DNA from: a virus
Length of the DNA: 26,659 nt
Reading direction: 5' to 3' (one strand)
IMG/VR virus record: IMGVR_UViG_3300026484_000318
Coordinates: 1-26,659 of that record
Position 1 is the first letter of the stretch. Every line of letters begins with the position of its first letter. A program made the position numbers and the translations under genes. The notes under the pieces are model-generated. The model had not been told where the DNA came from, made no database searches, and saw only the letters and a program-made list of their open reading frames with translations. Positions 432 through 26,659 of the stretch are shown here, piece after piece.

Positions 432-1775
432 ATGGTTAAGAATACAGCCTTTACTAAGTTAATGAGTGGAGATAAGGTTAGAGCCTCTACATGGGATAAA
501 GATAGATTTATCACAATGAATAAAGAGGGTCAAATAGTTGATAATGAAAATAATATCTTTAATATGATGACTGCTAAAGAAAAGAAGTGGGATTTATATG
601 TAGAACCAAAGAGTGAAGCAACACTCACAGACAATACAGAAGTTTTAAACCTTATTAAAGAGCTTATGGCTGAAGTTAAAGAGCTTAAAGAAGCGAAAGG
701 CAATACAGAAGCCGTTTGTGATATTGATAGCGATGATATAGCCTCTCATGTAGCCGATGAGGTTATAGATGCAGTTGAGCAAAAAGTAACTCAGGCTATA
801 AAAGATAATGTTCCTCAGGAAGAGAGAACACATGAGGATATTGTTAAAATATTTTATGGTGTTTCAGCATTAAAAGAAGTTAGAGAGCTTTTTAAACAAG
901 ACTTACTTAAATGTGAAGATAAAAGAGATATTGCACTAACAGTTACCAAGTATCTACCATATTGCTGGATGGGTGCAAGAAGTATTAAAACTGTAGCTCG
1001 TTATTATGCAGACATGAGAAATGTAATCAAAGATGTAAATGACAACTTTCAAGATTATGCACTGGAGCTTTTTTCAGTTCCTCAAGATGTTTATGAACGA
1101 ATTAAAAAAGCAGATACTAAAAAAGTACTTGATAAGCTAGAAGCAGACAAAGAGACTTTTGAAGTGAAAGATATTGAAAGCACTATATCAAGCCTAAAAG
1201 AAACAGTTAAAAAAGCTTTAGAGCTTGGTTCTGAGGTAACTATTGAACAATGGAAAGCTAACGGCTTACCAATCTCTAAACAACAAACAGTTGATAGAGC
1301 TAGAGCTTACTTATTCGCTACTTATATAGCTTTTGTTACAGGTCGCAGAATTACTGAAATTTTAAAAACTCTATCTCTTGTAAAAAAAGAGGGTGGATGG
1401 TATTACAAGGGCATAATGAAAAAAGGCTCTGAGGGTGTTGAAATAAAAGCTTATAGCTTAGATAGTGACTACGAACTGTTATCTAAACTTTTTAAACAAC
1501 TTAGAGAAGATATAGACACTTCAAATATGACAAACCAAGAAGTAAACAGTAAATTTAATCATATTTTCAATAGAGCAATGAAAAATATTACAGGGCTTAA
1601 ATACACTTACCACGACTTAAGAGAGATATTCGCTGAAATAGCTTATATTGAATACGGTAAGAAAAACGGCTCTGATAGAGAGAAAGAGGACTTTATCTCT
1701 GATATTTTAGGGCATGAAATAAACAAAGATAGATTAGTATCAGCTAACCACTACATGACAAAAGAGGGAAAATAG
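432..1775 (+). CDS. Protelomerase (hairpin telomere resolvase)
   Basis: This enzyme would cut the duplicated palindromic telomeres made by replication and rejoin the strands as closed hairpins. The C-terminal half carries a tyrosine-recombinase active site: TGRR with Arg306, candidate Lys330/331 in the beta-hairpin (GIMKKGSEG), HDLR at 394-397, LGH with His428, and candidate nucleophile Tyr441 in NHYM six residues from the end. The 447 aa, the long helical N-terminal part with a coiled-coil-like stretch near 65-90, and the compact C-terminus fit protelomerases better than ordinary integrases. His428 to Tyr441 is 13 residues, longer than the usual 9. RBS AAGGA at 421-425 supports the ATG at 432. 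The stop lies one base before the ParA-like gene, so the two are probably co-transcribed. An integrase is the alternative, but the flanking hairpin palindromes argue against it. Confidence 0.87.
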   Translation: MVKNTAFTKLMSGDKVRASTWDKDRFITMNKEGQIVDNENNIFNMMTAKEKKWDLYVEPKSEATLTDNTEVLNLIKELMAEVKELKEAKGNTEAVCDIDSDDIASHVADEVIDAVEQKVTQAIKDNVPQEERTHEDIVKIFYGVSALKEVRELFKQDLLKCEDKRDIALTVTKYLPYCWMGARSIKTVARYYADMRNVIKDVNDNFQDYALELFSVPQDVYERIKKADTKKVLDKLEADKETFEVKDIESTISSLKETVKKALELGSEVTIEQWKANGLPISKQQTVDRARAYLFATYIAFVTGRRITEILKTLSLVKKEGGWYYKGIMKKGSEGVEIKAYSLDSDYELLSKLFKQLREDIDTSNMTNQEVNSKFNHIFNRAMKNITGLKYTYHDLREIFAEIAYIEYGKKNGSDREKEDFISDILGHEINKDRLVSANHYMTKEGK

Positions 1776-2777: not shown

Positions 2778-3122
2778 ATGAAAAAAATTATAGAAGAACT
2801 ACAAAAAAGATTAACAGAAGATTGTACTTACTTTAATATATTTGATAATAATGGAAATGAAGTTAAATCAGAATTAGAAATATTGAATTTAAAAATAGAT
2901 GCAATCGTAAGTTTTGAAGTAAAAGATAGAAATTACAAAGTATCAAAAATAAAAAAAATCTATCCAATTCAAAATAAAAGAATTTATTATGCAGAAATTT
3001 GTGAAATAGAAATATTTATAAATGACAGTAGTGAGTTTATATTTGTATATGCAGAGTTAAAAGATAATGAAGATAACACAACAAGTGTTAAAAGTTGGAA
3101 AATTTCTCAAGATAGATATTAA
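2778..3122 (+). CDS. Hypothetical protein (114 aa)
   Basis: I do not recognise this family. The protein starts with an amphipathic charged helix and continues with alternating hydrophobic and charged residues suggesting beta strands. It has no cysteine cluster, signal peptide or membrane segment. AGGA just upstream sits about 7 bases before the ATG at 2778. It is the first gene after the consensus promoter at 2713-2741, so it should be strongly expressed when the overlapping operator is free. The next gene starts one base after its stop, suggesting translational coupling. A role in plasmid maintenance or a small regulatory module is possible but unsupported. Confidence 0.6.
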   Translation: MKKIIEELQKRLTEDCTYFNIFDNNGNEVKSELEILNLKIDAIVSFEVKDRNYKVSKIKKIYPIQNKRIYYAEICEIEIFINDSSEFIFVYAELKDNEDNTTSVKSWKISQDRY

Positions 3123-3428: not shown

Positions 3429-3545
3429 ATGAGTTACAAAAAAATGAAAGAAATAAGCACACTAGCAGAAAAGCAGGGTATAGAGTTGAAAACAATATCA
3501 GATTTTTTACAATTCGCTAAGGAGTTTGATAATGGAAAAGATTAA
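3429..3545 (+). CDS. Small protein (38 aa)
   Basis: ATG at 3429 follows ACGGAG at 3416-3421 with a 7-base gap. The frame encodes MSYKKMKEISTLAEK and continues to a TAA at 3543-3545, overlapping the next gene by 14 bp. It is lysine-rich and probably helical, with no recognised domain. The good ribosome-binding site and overlap suggest it is translated and coupled to the next gene. It may be a leader peptide. Confidence is moderate because so short a frame can occur by chance. Confidence 0.42.
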   Translation: MSYKKMKEISTLAEKQGIELKTISDFLQFAKEFDNGKD

Positions 3546-3873
3546 ATTTGATGTAAGTAACCTATTCGCTAAAAAAGAGGTTCTAATCTCTAAAGATGAA
3601 ATTGTCGAGATCGTTCACTTTGCTATTCAAAATGGAATAGTAAAAATAGAAACTCAATCTATGGATGTTGAGGAAGATGAAAACTATATGCGATTAGAAG
3701 ATAGAGTTCTAAGACTTGGCTTCACTAATACAGTTGAAAATATACTCATAAAACCATTTGACTACAAAGATGGAGAGGAATGTTCATCATGTCATGGAGA
3801 TAAAGAGTATGAAGTATCAGCAGGAACTCACTCAATTTTTCAAGAGTGCCATTGTACAAAGGAAAATATATAG
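3532..3873 (+). CDS. Hypothetical protein with C-terminal Cys cluster (113 aa)
   Basis: The ATG at 3532 has AAGGAG at 3519-3524, 7 bases upstream, and is preferred over an in-frame TTG at 3526. The protein has helical, hydrophobic-patterned N-terminal and middle parts. It ends with CSSCHGDKEYE then ECHC, five cysteines/histidines in CxxCH and CHC arrangements that could bind zinc in the manner of DnaJ-type or rubredoxin-like knuckles. No family is recognised. Its stop TAG (3871-3873) directly abuts the ATG at 3874 that would start the PAPS-reductase-family gene, so the two are probably one transcription unit and may act together. Confidence 0.6.
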   Translation: MEKIKFDVSNLFAKKEVLISKDEIVEIVHFAIQNGIVKIETQSMDVEEDENYMRLEDRVLRLGFTNTVENILIKPFDYKDGEECSSCHGDKEYEVSAGTHSIFQECHCTKENI

Positions 3874-3933
3874 ATGAAAAAATCAAACATACTAACTAAA
3901 CTACTCAATGGGGGGGGGGAACTTCTCAGATAA
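3874..3933 (+). other. Probable native start of the PAPS-reductase-family gene, out of frame at G10
   Basis: ATG 3874-3876 lies immediately after the stop of the upstream gene with AAGGA about ten bases before it. It reads MKKSNILTKLLNGGG and then, because the tract has ten Gs, runs to a stop at 3931-3933 after 19 codons. Removing one G (G9) would join this frame exactly to the long frame that begins SDKTIFIISISGGKDS. By contrast the ATG at 3908 has no ribosome-binding site. So as sequenced the gene looks switched off or reduced, unless the G count is a sequencing error. Confidence 0.65.
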
Positions 3934-4999
3934 GACTATATTCATTATTAGTATAAGTGGAGGTAAAGACTCAAAGGCAACTCTTATTGTGTCTTTACCA
4001 CTACTTCTTAAAATAGTTAAACCCTCTCAAATTAAAGTAGTGTTTTGCGATACAGGTTGGGAAAAAGATGAGACTATGCAGGAAATTGAAACTATAAAAA
4101 TTAGATTAAAAAAGTTTGATATAGAGTTCCTATCTTTGAATAATTCTAAATATCCAAACGGTATGACCGACCTTTTGCTTCATAAGAAAATATTCCCATC
4201 AAGATTAACAAAGTTTTGTACAGAAGAGTTAAAAATGATACCTGCATTAAATTACTATAAAGAGTTATCTTCTAAAGGTCTTGATGTAATTGTATTAGTA
4301 GGAAAGAGAAGAGATGAGTCAACAGATCGTGCAAACACTCCAGAGGTTCAATTTGAAAAAAGAAAACATTGGAGCTTCACAATTTATCATCCGATTGCTG
4401 ATTGGACTGAAACAGATGTTTATAGTTATTTAGATGAAACTTGGGGTATTCCAAGTTCTTATTTTAACGGAAACACAAGAGTTGGTTGTGATGAGTGTTT
4501 CCAAGCAACATTAAAAGCCGTTTCACTTATGAGTGAAGATAAAATAAAACAAATGGAAGAGGTAGAGGAAAAAGTAAATAATCATCACTCTGATTACGAG
4601 CATGACAAATATGCATTCTTTTATAGAAAAAGTAAATCATTTCCTCAAGGTTATGCTCCTATTAGAGAGATAGTGAATTATGCAAAAGATAAATACAATT
4701 TTAACTATTACACTTTTCACACTAGAGCATTAAAAAAGATGTCTGACAAAATAGGTCAAAAAACACTTAGATACAAATTTATACAATCTGGATACATTCC
4801 AAACAAAAGTAATTTTTCAAAATATATAAATGGAGTTTTATCAGTTCCTCAATCTATGCAGTTTGATGTAGAGGTATTAACTACCAAGATTTTAACTTCT
4901 AAAGAAAGAAGTGATTTATTGAAGTTTGAAAAGTTAGAAGCTATTTCTAAAGAAAATGATAATTTATCATGCGACTGTGAGAGTTACAATATGTTTTAA
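3908..4999 (+). CDS. PAPS-reductase/adenine-nucleotide alpha-hydrolase family protein
   Basis: A 363-aa protein with the PP-loop SISGGKDSKAT (about residues 15-25), which binds the pyrophosphate of a nucleotide. VVFCDTGWE follows near residues 47-55, then a CTEELK motif, KRRDES, IADWTETDVYSYL and a VGCDEC cysteine pair, the order seen in PAPS-reductase-like and DndC/IbrA-like proteins of phages and islands. Members activate or transfer sulfur or act on nucleotides; the substrate here cannot be told. The C-terminal third is unlike a classical CysH. The annotated ATG lies at the edge of the G10 tract and has no Shine-Dalgarno; the native start is probably 3874 when the tract is G9. Possible roles include DNA or tRNA modification protecting the element from host defence. 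No dnd partners or ParB-like IbrB are nearby. Confidence 0.72.
   Translation: MGGGNFSDKTIFIISISGGKDSKATLIVSLPLLLKIVKPSQIKVVFCDTGWEKDETMQEIETIKIRLKKFDIEFLSLNNSKYPNGMTDLLLHKKIFPSRLTKFCTEELKMIPALNYYKELSSKGLDVIVLVGKRRDESTDRANTPEVQFEKRKHWSFTIYHPIADWTETDVYSYLDETWGIPSSYFNGNTRVGCDECFQATLKAVSLMSEDKIKQMEEVEEKVNNHHSDYEHDKYAFFYRKSKSFPQGYAPIREIVNYAKDKYNFNYYTFHTRALKKMSDKIGQKTLRYKFIQSGYIPNKSNFSKYINGVLSVPQSMQFDVEVLTTKILTSKERSDLLKFEKLEAISKENDNLSCDCESYNMF
3910..3919 (+). repeat. G10 homopolymer, candidate phase-variation tract
   Basis: Ten consecutive Gs in a genome of very low GC, sitting about 12 codons into the probable coding sequence. In Campylobacter and Helicobacter, G/C runs of this length change by slipped-strand mispairing and switch genes on and off. 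One base fewer restores a continuous frame from the well-placed ATG at 3874. Confidence 0.75.
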
Positions 5000-5129: not shown

Positions 5130-5160
5130 GGAGAGTGTAGGGTCTCATTTCTCACTCTCC
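5130..5160. terminator. Hairpin between convergent genes
   Basis: GGAGAGTG (5130-5137) and CACTCTCC (5153-5160) form a GC-rich 8-bp stem with a 15-base loop in an AT-rich gap. It lies between the PAPS-reductase-family gene (ends 4999) and the convergent lysozyme gene (ends 5192). It lacks a clean T-run on either strand, so it would be a weak or bidirectional terminator. The rest of 5000-5191 shows no gene. Confidence 0.4.
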
Positions 5161-5177: not shown

Positions 5178-5186
5178 CCCCCCCCC
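5178..5186. repeat. C9 tract (G9 on the minus strand) 3' of the tail operon
   Basis: Nine Cs lie five bases beyond the lysozyme stop. It is a second G/C homopolymer in a low-GC element, on the opposite strand to the G10 tract. It is not inside any reading frame I can support, so it cannot switch a gene by frame. It might be a decayed switch or affect 3' RNA structure. Confidence 0.5.
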
Positions 5187-5590: not shown

Positions 5591-5617
5591 TATATTACCA
5601 CCAACATTTTATTCCCA

Positions 5618-5875
5618 CTACTCTTGCATCTGAGTAGAATTTACACTCACTTTTTTTTTGCTTTTTTGTCGCTCTATCTCATCAACCATTGCCGTACGAC
5701 TTTTGTCATAAGTAACTATGACTTTATCCATCGCCTCAAGCTGAGGGTTATCTATATCAAGCTCTATATATGCAGTTCTCGCACCAACATAGATAACTTT
5801 CCCAGTACTATATGCTTTATCAGCACATCCACTAAAAGAGAAAACTATCATCATAAAAAGTAAAATTATTTTCAT
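5618..5875 (-). CDS. Small lipoprotein, possible outer-membrane spanin
   Basis: An 85-aa protein with a classic lipoprotein signal peptide: a short lysine start, a hydrophobic core, and FSFSGC with the lipidated cysteine at residue 17. The mature part has a beta-like stretch (VIYVGARTAYIELDI) and a lysine-rich charged C-terminus. Lying next to the lysozyme it could be an o-spanin (Rz1-like) or another envelope factor for lysis. Real Rz1 proteins are usually proline-rich, which this is not, so the assignment is weak. The ATG overlaps the upstream DUF1353 stop by 3 bases (ATGA). A run of nine As in the coding strand near the C-terminus is a possible slippage site. Confidence 0.6.
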   Translation of the reverse strand: MKIILLFMMIVFSFSGCADKAYSTGKVIYVGARTAYIELDIDNPQLEAMDKVIVTYDKSRTAMVDEIERQKSKKKVSVNSTQMQE

Positions 5876-6321
5876 TTATTTTTATCCTCATATCTGTTTT
5901 TAACTTCCTCTATTTTATTATAGAGTTCATAACTAAAGGGCTGTTTTTGTCTATGCTCTTTCCAAGCTTTACCACCTCCGACTTTAAGTCCTTTGCGAAC
6001 AAAGAAAACTCTCCACCACACGACATTGAGGGACTTCATAGCCTCTTTAAGCATATCATCGCTCTCCGCTCTTGTAAACATCCCAGTTTTATAGAGATAA
6101 TCATGAAGCACGTAAGCAAAAAGAGCTTTTCCGTCTTTTGGAAATATCCCCTGCAAAAACTGCGGAATACTCCCTAAATCAGTTTCAAATCCAACAGGAA
6201 CAACGATAAGCTGATTAACAATACTTTCAGAGTAGTAAGTTAAAATTGACTTAGTTGTTCGCAAAACTCCATCTCTTCCTACTCTTAAATCAATCTCTTC
6301 TTCTAAAAATCCAATTTCCAT
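5872..6321 (-). CDS. DUF1353 family phage protein
   Basis: A 149-aa protein with the hallmarks of DUF1353: VPVGFETDLGSIPQFLQGIFP (about residues 41-61) followed by ALFAYVLHDYLYKTG (about 67-81), in which Asp, Ser and the HDYLY block are conserved. Family members occur widely in tailed phages near tail or lysis genes, and their function is unknown. One suggestion is a peptidase or lysis role; I cannot decide from sequence. A lysine/arginine-rich C-terminal half follows. RBS AAGGG precedes the ATG. Downstream overlap with the lipoprotein gene indicates a single operon. Confidence 0.8.
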   Translation of the reverse strand: MEIGFLEEEIDLRVGRDGVLRTTKSILTYYSESIVNQLIVVPVGFETDLGSIPQFLQGIFPKDGKALFAYVLHDYLYKTGMFTRAESDDMLKEAMKSLNVVWWRVFFVRKGLKVGGGKAWKEHRQKQPFSYELYNKIEEVKNRYEDKNK

Positions 6322-6336
6322 CTAAACCCTTTTTTT

Positions 6337-7272
6337 TTAATTTTCTATCTCAAAAGAAGTAAGCCAACCAGCAGTTCTACTATAAGTATGACTACAACTA
6401 ACTACACTATAAACGCCATCATCTTCCCCATCATAAGTATTAAACAAGTCAACTTTAGTCCCAGCATAAACACTTTTTCCTTTTAAAGAAAGAGATCCAC
6501 TAACTGTTCCCTTGTTTATGCTTTTTAACTTAGCTTTTGCTTTTACTAAAGCGTCCTCAGCATCTATAAAAGTGCTTTTCATTTTAAATACTGGCGAACC
6601 ATCTCCAGCGATAACTTTTTTAGTTTTTGAACTATCTACATCATGCCACGATGCTTCACATGATTTGTAAAATGTTTTTGATGAATGCTTGAGAGAAGAA
6701 GAGCTGCATAAACTCACATCTATTTTCACGACAGGAAGAGATTTATCATCTTTATTCACAAAATACAGAAAATCATTTTTTATGGAAAAAGTACAGTTGT
6801 AAGTTTTAGAGAGTCTATCAAGAAAGTTAATATCGCTCTCGTTTGTTTGATTAAGAGATTTTATATCTATATCATCAGCTTCAAACTTCAACTTATGTCC
6901 TAGTCTATCAGCAACGATTTTCAATATCGAGGAGAGAGAACTATTCTGATAATGTTGTGACTGTTTATCTTTCTGTTTATCGCTAAACTCTATCCCAGTA
7001 GCACTAAAAGAGAGTGCCTTTGAGTTCGTTCTAGTAACAGTTTGAACATGAAAAAGACCACACTCGAGGGACTCTATTTTTTTATCATTTTTAAACGTTT
7101 CAAAAGTAAGCTCAATCTTAGAATTTGGGGCAGGTTTTGGAAAGTTTGGCATAACTTTAACAGAAACTTTGTCCGACTTTACTCCCGCACTATCACTAAA
7201 GCTAAGTGATAAAACATTTTCAATATATACATTTATCCCATCTATAGAGAGTTTTATAGTATCTCTTACCAT
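6337..7272 (-). CDS. D: Tail protein D (P2 gpD-like baseplate hub)
   Basis: A 311-aa protein resembling phage late control gene D. In contractile tails gpD forms the baseplate hub (like T4 gp27) that carries the spike V. The N-terminus sets out a beta barrel (IKLSIDGINVYIENVLSLSFSD). The middle contains LSSILKIVADRLGHKLKF and then SDINFLDRLSKTYNCTFSIK (about residues 155-174), the classic gpD signature. The C-terminus gives beta strands ending VVSCSHTYSRTAGWLTSFE, typical of the family. It follows X by overlap, matching the P2-like order U-X-D. Confidence 0.88.
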   Translation of the reverse strand: MVRDTIKLSIDGINVYIENVLSLSFSDSAGVKSDKVSVKVMPNFPKPAPNSKIELTFETFKNDKKIESLECGLFHVQTVTRTNSKALSFSATGIEFSDKQKDKQSQHYQNSSLSSILKIVADRLGHKLKFEADDIDIKSLNQTNESDINFLDRLSKTYNCTFSIKNDFLYFVNKDDKSLPVVKIDVSLCSSSSLKHSSKTFYKSCEASWHDVDSSKTKKVIAGDGSPVFKMKSTFIDAEDALVKAKAKLKSINKGTVSGSLSLKGKSVYAGTKVDLFNTYDGEDDGVYSVVSCSHTYSRTAGWLTSFEIEN

Positions 7273-26561: not shown

Positions 26562-26659
26562 TCGTTAGTCTTAATTTTCGTTTAAGCTTAACTAACAGTT
26601 ATTTAATTATATAATTAAATAACTGTTAGTTAAGCTTAAACGAAAATTAAGACTAACGA
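26562..26659. repeat. Right hairpin telomere (perfect 98-bp palindrome)
   Basis: Bases 26562-26610 are the exact reverse complement of 26611-26659, 49 bp per arm with no mismatch or spacer, centred at 26610/26611. Read inward from the centre, positions 3-20 are AATTAAATAACTGTTAGT, shared with the left end. The centre is TTATATAA, differing from the left end's TTAATTAA. This fits a closed hairpin read through and along the second strand, so 26611-26659 would repeat 26562-26610 and would not be extra sequence. Confidence 0.9.

Follow-up and report, generated by a model that had tools for sequence, protein, structure and literature searches.

A ten-G tract as a probable phase-variation switch in a phage PAPS-reductase-family gene

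Does a run of ten Gs near the 5' end of a phage PAPS-reductase-family gene mark a gene that is broken, or one that can be switched on and off? The question is raised by a 26,659-nucleotide stretch of viral DNA (IMGVR_UViG_3300026484_000318; the window, meaning this whole stretch), for which an earlier note, made from the sequence alone, had proposed that the tract phase-varies the gene and that the sequenced copy is in the off state. The note had also placed the gene on a mobile element. This is correct and can be made more precise, for the window is a linear protelomerase phage-plasmid with hairpin telomeres, probably near complete. It encodes a protelomerase with a ResT/TelK catalytic domain (432-1775, plus strand; PF16684, E 3.4e-12), ends on the right in a 98-bp perfect palindrome, read as an unfolded hairpin telomere (26562-26659), and begins with a palindrome (1-30) read as the other telomere, partly assembled. 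A ParA-like gene, an S24 repressor and contractile-tail genes are also present. The window is related to Campylobacterota elements. Among its relatives (L004-L006 and L012-L014), L005, L012 and L013 share an end point relative to the protelomerase, positions 1-104 of L005 being a palindromic end. The host is probably Sulfurimonas-like, judging from L010 and L011. Phages N15 and PY54 (PMC10612081, PMC12042878) likewise have a protelomerase, palindromic ends and ParA-like and S24 repressor genes, but the window differs from them in its relationship to Campylobacterota elements and in its contractile-tail-type structural genes. Campylobacter, Sulfurimonas and Arcobacter are not named in the main text of one of these papers, a recent survey of telomere phages (PMC12042878).

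The G10 tract and the start of the PAPS-family gene

The G10 homopolymer lies at 3910-3919 on the plus strand, in the linker that follows the N-terminal helix of the encoded protein and leads into its first beta-strand, as judged from the sequence and a model of the L004 relative. Directly upstream is the gene for a small, conserved zinc-ribbon-like protein (3526-3873, plus strand) with an orthologue in L004. As the note had described, an ATG (3874-3876) abuts the upstream stop (TAG, 3871-3873) and is preceded by a Shine-Dalgarno-like AAAGGA (3858-3863) at 10 nt spacing; with ten Gs its frame closes at 3931-3933, after the 19 codons of the out-of-frame ORF MKKSNILTKLLNGGGELLR (3874-3933, plus strand). 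With 3n Gs, for example nine, the frame from 3874 would run on into the PP-loop ORF and stay open to 4999, which bears out the proposed fusion to the SGGKDS protein. That ORF, open at G10 from 3908 to 4999 (plus strand), is intact from tract to stop, and its PP-loop SGGKDS (3956-3973, plus strand) is invariant in alignment A1. Tract length modulo three thus sets whether a full-length or a truncated product is encoded, as read from the frames in the window and from the homologous N-terminus lying in the other frame. The sole in-frame ATG at G10 (3908-3910) was confirmed to lie inside the tract and to have no Shine-Dalgarno sequence.

A tract of this kind is not expected from base composition. 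Under a first-order Markov model of the window (32% GC), about 3e-5 runs of ten or more Gs are expected and one is observed; for G or C runs of at least nine, about 1e-3 are expected and two are observed (the G10 and a C9 at 5178-5186). Apart from these two tracts, no G or C run in the window is longer than 5. A Sulfurimonas metagenome-assembled genome (MAG) of 2.6 Mb has G8 or longer at two places.

The native start is indicated by four tract-free relatives of the PAPS-family protein, with 78% (L004 and L005), 64% (L006) and about 69% (L011) identity to that of the window. All four share the N-terminus MKxxxILxKLL (MKKTKILTKLL in L004, LKKSKILTKLL in L005, MKQARILKKLI in L006 and MKQSKILKKLL in L011), and the off frame of the window from 3874 codes for MKKSNILTKLL ahead of the tract. 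We therefore take 3874 as the native start and G10 as OFF, as had been claimed; nine Gs would restore the frame. In a structure model of the L004 protein (pLDDT 61 overall, about 75 in the N-terminal part), a helix at residues 2-13 and a strand at 20-26 precede the PP-loop, suggesting that the tract replaces a non-conserved linker. The L011 homologue (5950-7113) belongs to the same subfamily and lies in a filamentous-phage-like element of a Sulfurimonas MAG; this element carries Zot-like, secretin-like and replication genes.

Downstream of the tract the gene body shows the marks of constraint. The window protein matches PF01507 (83.4 bits against a cut-off of 22.5) and PHROG_424 (E 1.5e-35), both by profile. 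Compared with L004, dN/dS is 0.235, and amino-acid identity to the outgroup L006 is equal for the window (230/359) and L004 (238/370), so that the window gene evolves no faster than its tract-free relative; together, these values argue against an old pseudogene. Searching INPHARED with the window PAPS protein returned matches only at below 60% identity, and 397 Campylobacteria genomes searched for the PAPS and protelomerase genes held almost no relatives. An exact-flank search found no further copy of the window phage, and hence none with another tract length.

Recurrence and length polymorphism of the tract

To look for the same arrangement elsewhere, 2.9 million viral contigs were scanned for G8 or longer followed within 20-50 nt by a PP-loop. 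Among the 20 contigs recovered, 13 (10 distinct genes) carry a PAPS-family gene with the tract in the same linker. PHROG_424, the family of the window gene, was matched by all nine of the ten genes that were tested. In each, there is one length modulo three at which an upstream ATG and a helix, often ending in WYE.WGG, are read in frame with the PP-loop. Eleven of the 13 contigs are out of frame and two (L046 and L048) are in frame; one of the out-of-frame genes (L055/L163) is broken at a second site as well and may be dead. The scan also returned six chance matches (L041, L043, L044, L047, L050 and L052) and one in which the tract sits before the ORF (L039). We ruled out WGG codons before the PP-loop as the sole source of G runs: none of 77 PAPS-family genes fetched regardless of tracts has a G run longer than 4 in the linker, and glycine codons alone therefore do not explain the tract. 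Since this sample favours intact genes, it serves as a control for codon usage and gives no estimate of frequency. Near and distant DNA searches of INPHARED phages with the tract-bearing loci found no useful relatives. In three Campylobacteria genomes (L167, L168 and L169), a G8 lies just before a different PP-loop gene (YDCVIGVSGGKDS), whose product is similar to sugar amidotransferases of the PseA type; tracts in this linker are tolerated in a second PP-loop family too.

Two pairs of near-identical contigs differ in the length of the tract. Over 6,915 bp, L149 and L150 are 99.88% identical. They differ by seven substitutions and one indel, and this sole indel is the PAPS tract (G10 against G9, OFF in either case); none of eight A/T runs of 6 has changed. 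L151 and L152 (97.6% over 7.9 kb) differ by three indel events, one in an A run at 5617, one in the PAPS tract (G9/G8) and one in a poly-C tract of a C5-cytosine methyltransferase (MTase) gene (C8/C10). In L151 the PAPS gene (G9) and the nearby C5-MTase gene (C8) are both open (ON), and in L152 (G8 and C10) both are truncated (OFF). Read from consensus sequences, which in metagenomes can be off by one in a homopolymer, the indels of both pairs fit the pattern expected of slippage switches; were the true tract of the window G9, its gene would be ON and still tract-bearing. The proposal that the tract phase-varies thus gains from length differences and out-of-frame copies in the same gene family, while the window phage itself is represented by a single consensus. 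The comparison of related elements for G9 and G10 gave a G10/G9 pair in distant family members; the closest PAPS orthologues are tract-free.

Tracts are also found in methyltransferase genes. In L005, the C5-MTase gene just upstream of the PAPS gene has a G8 where L004 has GGG, putting out of frame a Cys-rich C-terminal tail that is conserved in L004 and L006. The second tract of the window, a G9 on the minus strand (5178-5186), lies just after the lysozyme gene, at the same place and length as in L013, where a D12 adenine MTase gene follows it; this MTase is absent from the window. An example with many tracts is the 127-kb G405 (IMGVR_UViG_2513237329_000013; L147 and L148), which has eleven G/C runs of at least 8. 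Each of its four G9 runs falls in sequence that belongs to, or can be read as, a modification gene, namely two PAPS-family genes, a C5-MTase (C-terminal part, assigned by eye) and a PF05869 Dam; 9 of the 11 runs fall within about 4.5 kb around the modification cluster or in Dam. Further tract-bearing genes encode a D12 MTase (L157, off), a PF05869 Dam (L164) and a C5-MTase (L154). In G414, adjacent related proteins of unassigned function (PCGGF start; L155, 5186 and 5618) have G8/G9 tracts, one in frame and one out, so that the modification-gene theme is strong and not exclusive.

Several features of these loci are recorded as side observations. In G405, nine of the eleven runs lie within or close to genes for PAPS, adenine-MTase, C5-MTase and Dam, and several genes have two tracts. 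The second tract of the window directly follows ATGATATATG, with its L013 counterpart at 5713-5721; in L013 the end of a tract-dependent small ORF overlaps the TTG start of the D12 MTase, as if coupling translation. An inverted repeat (GAGAGTG...CACTCTC) and a second, AT-rich palindrome are conserved in the lysozyme-MTase intergenic region (about 5130-5160 in the window, 3870-3915 in L014), even where the genes differ. A tRNA-like gene, recognized by eye, adjoins the MTase in L014 (about 2943-3025).

Enzyme function and alternative explanations

The window protein resembles two kinds of PP-loop enzyme and fits the curated model of neither. With DndC, SspD and BrxP, of DNA phosphorothioation and BREX-type defence, it shares the PP-loop SGGKDS and partial profile matches (BrxP 1e-25, SspD 9e-19, DndC 8e-14), but it scores far below the cut-off of the curated DndC model TIGR03183 (44.2 against 290.4 bits), and no dnd, ssp or brx partner gene was found among the part of the window's ORFs scanned against family libraries. 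With CysH PAPS/APS reductases it shares PF01507 above cut-off, and CysH and APS reductases are the nearest solved folds by Foldseek; that search used a low-confidence AlphaFold model (pLDDT 61) and is therefore supportive only. A sequence search against solved structures gave no matches. The assimilatory reading, a metabolic sulfur gene that helps the host and modifies no nucleic acid, draws on these folds and on the filing of PHROG_424 as 'moron, auxiliary metabolic gene', but we regard it as rather unlikely. The window protein misses the curated CysH cut-off (51.9 against 165.1 bits) and has a longer C-terminal part, the ECG(L/I)H motif is absent from P0001-P0004, and the neighbours are those of DNA modification: the PAPS gene follows a C5-MTase gene in L004 and L005 and has one nearby in L151, L154 and G405, and in G414 it is accompanied by a class-V aminotransferase gene. 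This last gene (L156, 3109-4338, minus strand; cysteine-desulfurase-like, with an SAC motif) adjoins a tract-bearing, out-of-frame PAPS gene, possibly forming a pair of desulfurase and PP-loop sulfur enzyme. Sulfur-dependent nucleic-acid modification is thus our leading inference for the enzyme, with sulfate metabolism as its rival. The earlier suggestion of defence evasion or of DNA/RNA modification would fit the neighbouring genes, a D12 MTase among them, and the weak similarity to DndC, SspD and BrxP.

The remaining alternatives concern the tract itself. That the gene is permanently broken by a fixed frameshift in decaying cargo, as might be thought from a phage seen only in the OFF form that has lost the D12 MTase present downstream of the lysozyme region in L012, L013 and L014, seems very improbable: about 360 codons are still open, with no acceleration of rate and a dN/dS of about 0.2, and a random frameshift would not take the form of a ten-G run at 32% GC, and unrelated phages would not share its position. 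We give somewhat more weight, still small, to a sequencing or assembly error, in which the true tract is G9 and the gene ON, with the tract perhaps still variable. No part of an assembly is less certain than its homopolymers of 9-10, and only a consensus is at hand; yet the tract itself would remain, OFF is too frequent across independent contigs (11 of 13), and the two-base C8/C10 difference with its effect on the frame is hard to obtain by error. Similarly unlikely is expression of the G10 form, either from the ATG at 3908, which is in frame at this length, or by ribosomal or transcriptional slippage, which is known on homopolymers from other genes. A start at 3908 is unlikely, since it would fall within the tract, lacks a Shine-Dalgarno sequence and is matched by no start in the relatives; the N-terminal helix conserved in the four relatives would also be lost.

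A proposed switch and its meaning

Overall, we consider it highly likely that the PAPS-family gene is switched by slipped-strand phase variation at its G10 tract, with nucleic-acid modification as the most likely role of the enzyme. Translation would start at 3874, and only 3n Gs (9 or 12) would join the N-terminal helix to the PP-loop enzyme, the sequenced copy being OFF. Because the tract sits in a variable linker that tolerates a few glycines, gain or loss of one G during replication would flip the gene and leave it otherwise undamaged. The same arrangement has arisen repeatedly in unrelated phages, in PAPS-family and neighbouring phage DNA-methyltransferase genes. The enzyme would most likely act in sulfur-dependent or methylation-linked modification of DNA (RNA being less likely), and the resulting phage population would contain modified particles alongside unmodified ones, which might help, for example, against restriction.

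Poly-G/C phase variation is known from bacterial contingency genes, including those of Campylobacter and Helicobacter (review PMC8355987), which likewise have a G/C tract within an ORF, frame-dependent ON and OFF states and length differences between close relatives. In contrast, the tract described here lies in a phage genome and in a PAPS-reductase-family gene; such tracts also occur in phages of other lineages that do not seem to come from Campylobacterota. A poly-G methyltransferase of H. pylori (PMC12003011) provides an example of the phase-variable bacterial DNA methyltransferases, or phasevarions, in which a tract in an MTase gene and restoration of the fusion by a one-base change are again alike; those are host restriction-modification genes, whereas here C5, D12 and PF05869 Dam genes are phage-borne and accompany a PAPS-family gene. 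Searches of open papers turned up no account of phage PAPS genes that phase-vary, nor of phage modification clusters switched by poly-G.

Since G runs of variable length are found both in homologues of the gene and in the DNA-methylation genes of phages unrelated to this one, some phages probably switch nucleic-acid-modifying enzymes at random. More tentatively, and with chances that we put a little below even, many phages of unrelated lineages and hosts may carry a stochastically switched modification module as a bet-hedge against restriction, in effect a phage-borne phasevarion. At its core would be a PAPS-family sulfur enzyme, in many cases with a C5-cytosine or adenine methyltransferase close by, and every gene would have a poly-G/C tract to itself; the particles from one phage clone would thus carry different combinations of DNA modifications. 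Accounts of phase variation usually present it as a means by which bacteria fight phages, yet in these loci it appears to serve the phages, acting on genes whose products probably mark nucleic acid. In that case the members of a single phage clone would differ in modification state and hence in sensitivity to restriction, and databases would contain many phage PAPS and MTase genes that look broken but are in fact switched off. The switch also offers a handle on the function of PHROG_424, through comparison of ON and OFF phage DNA.
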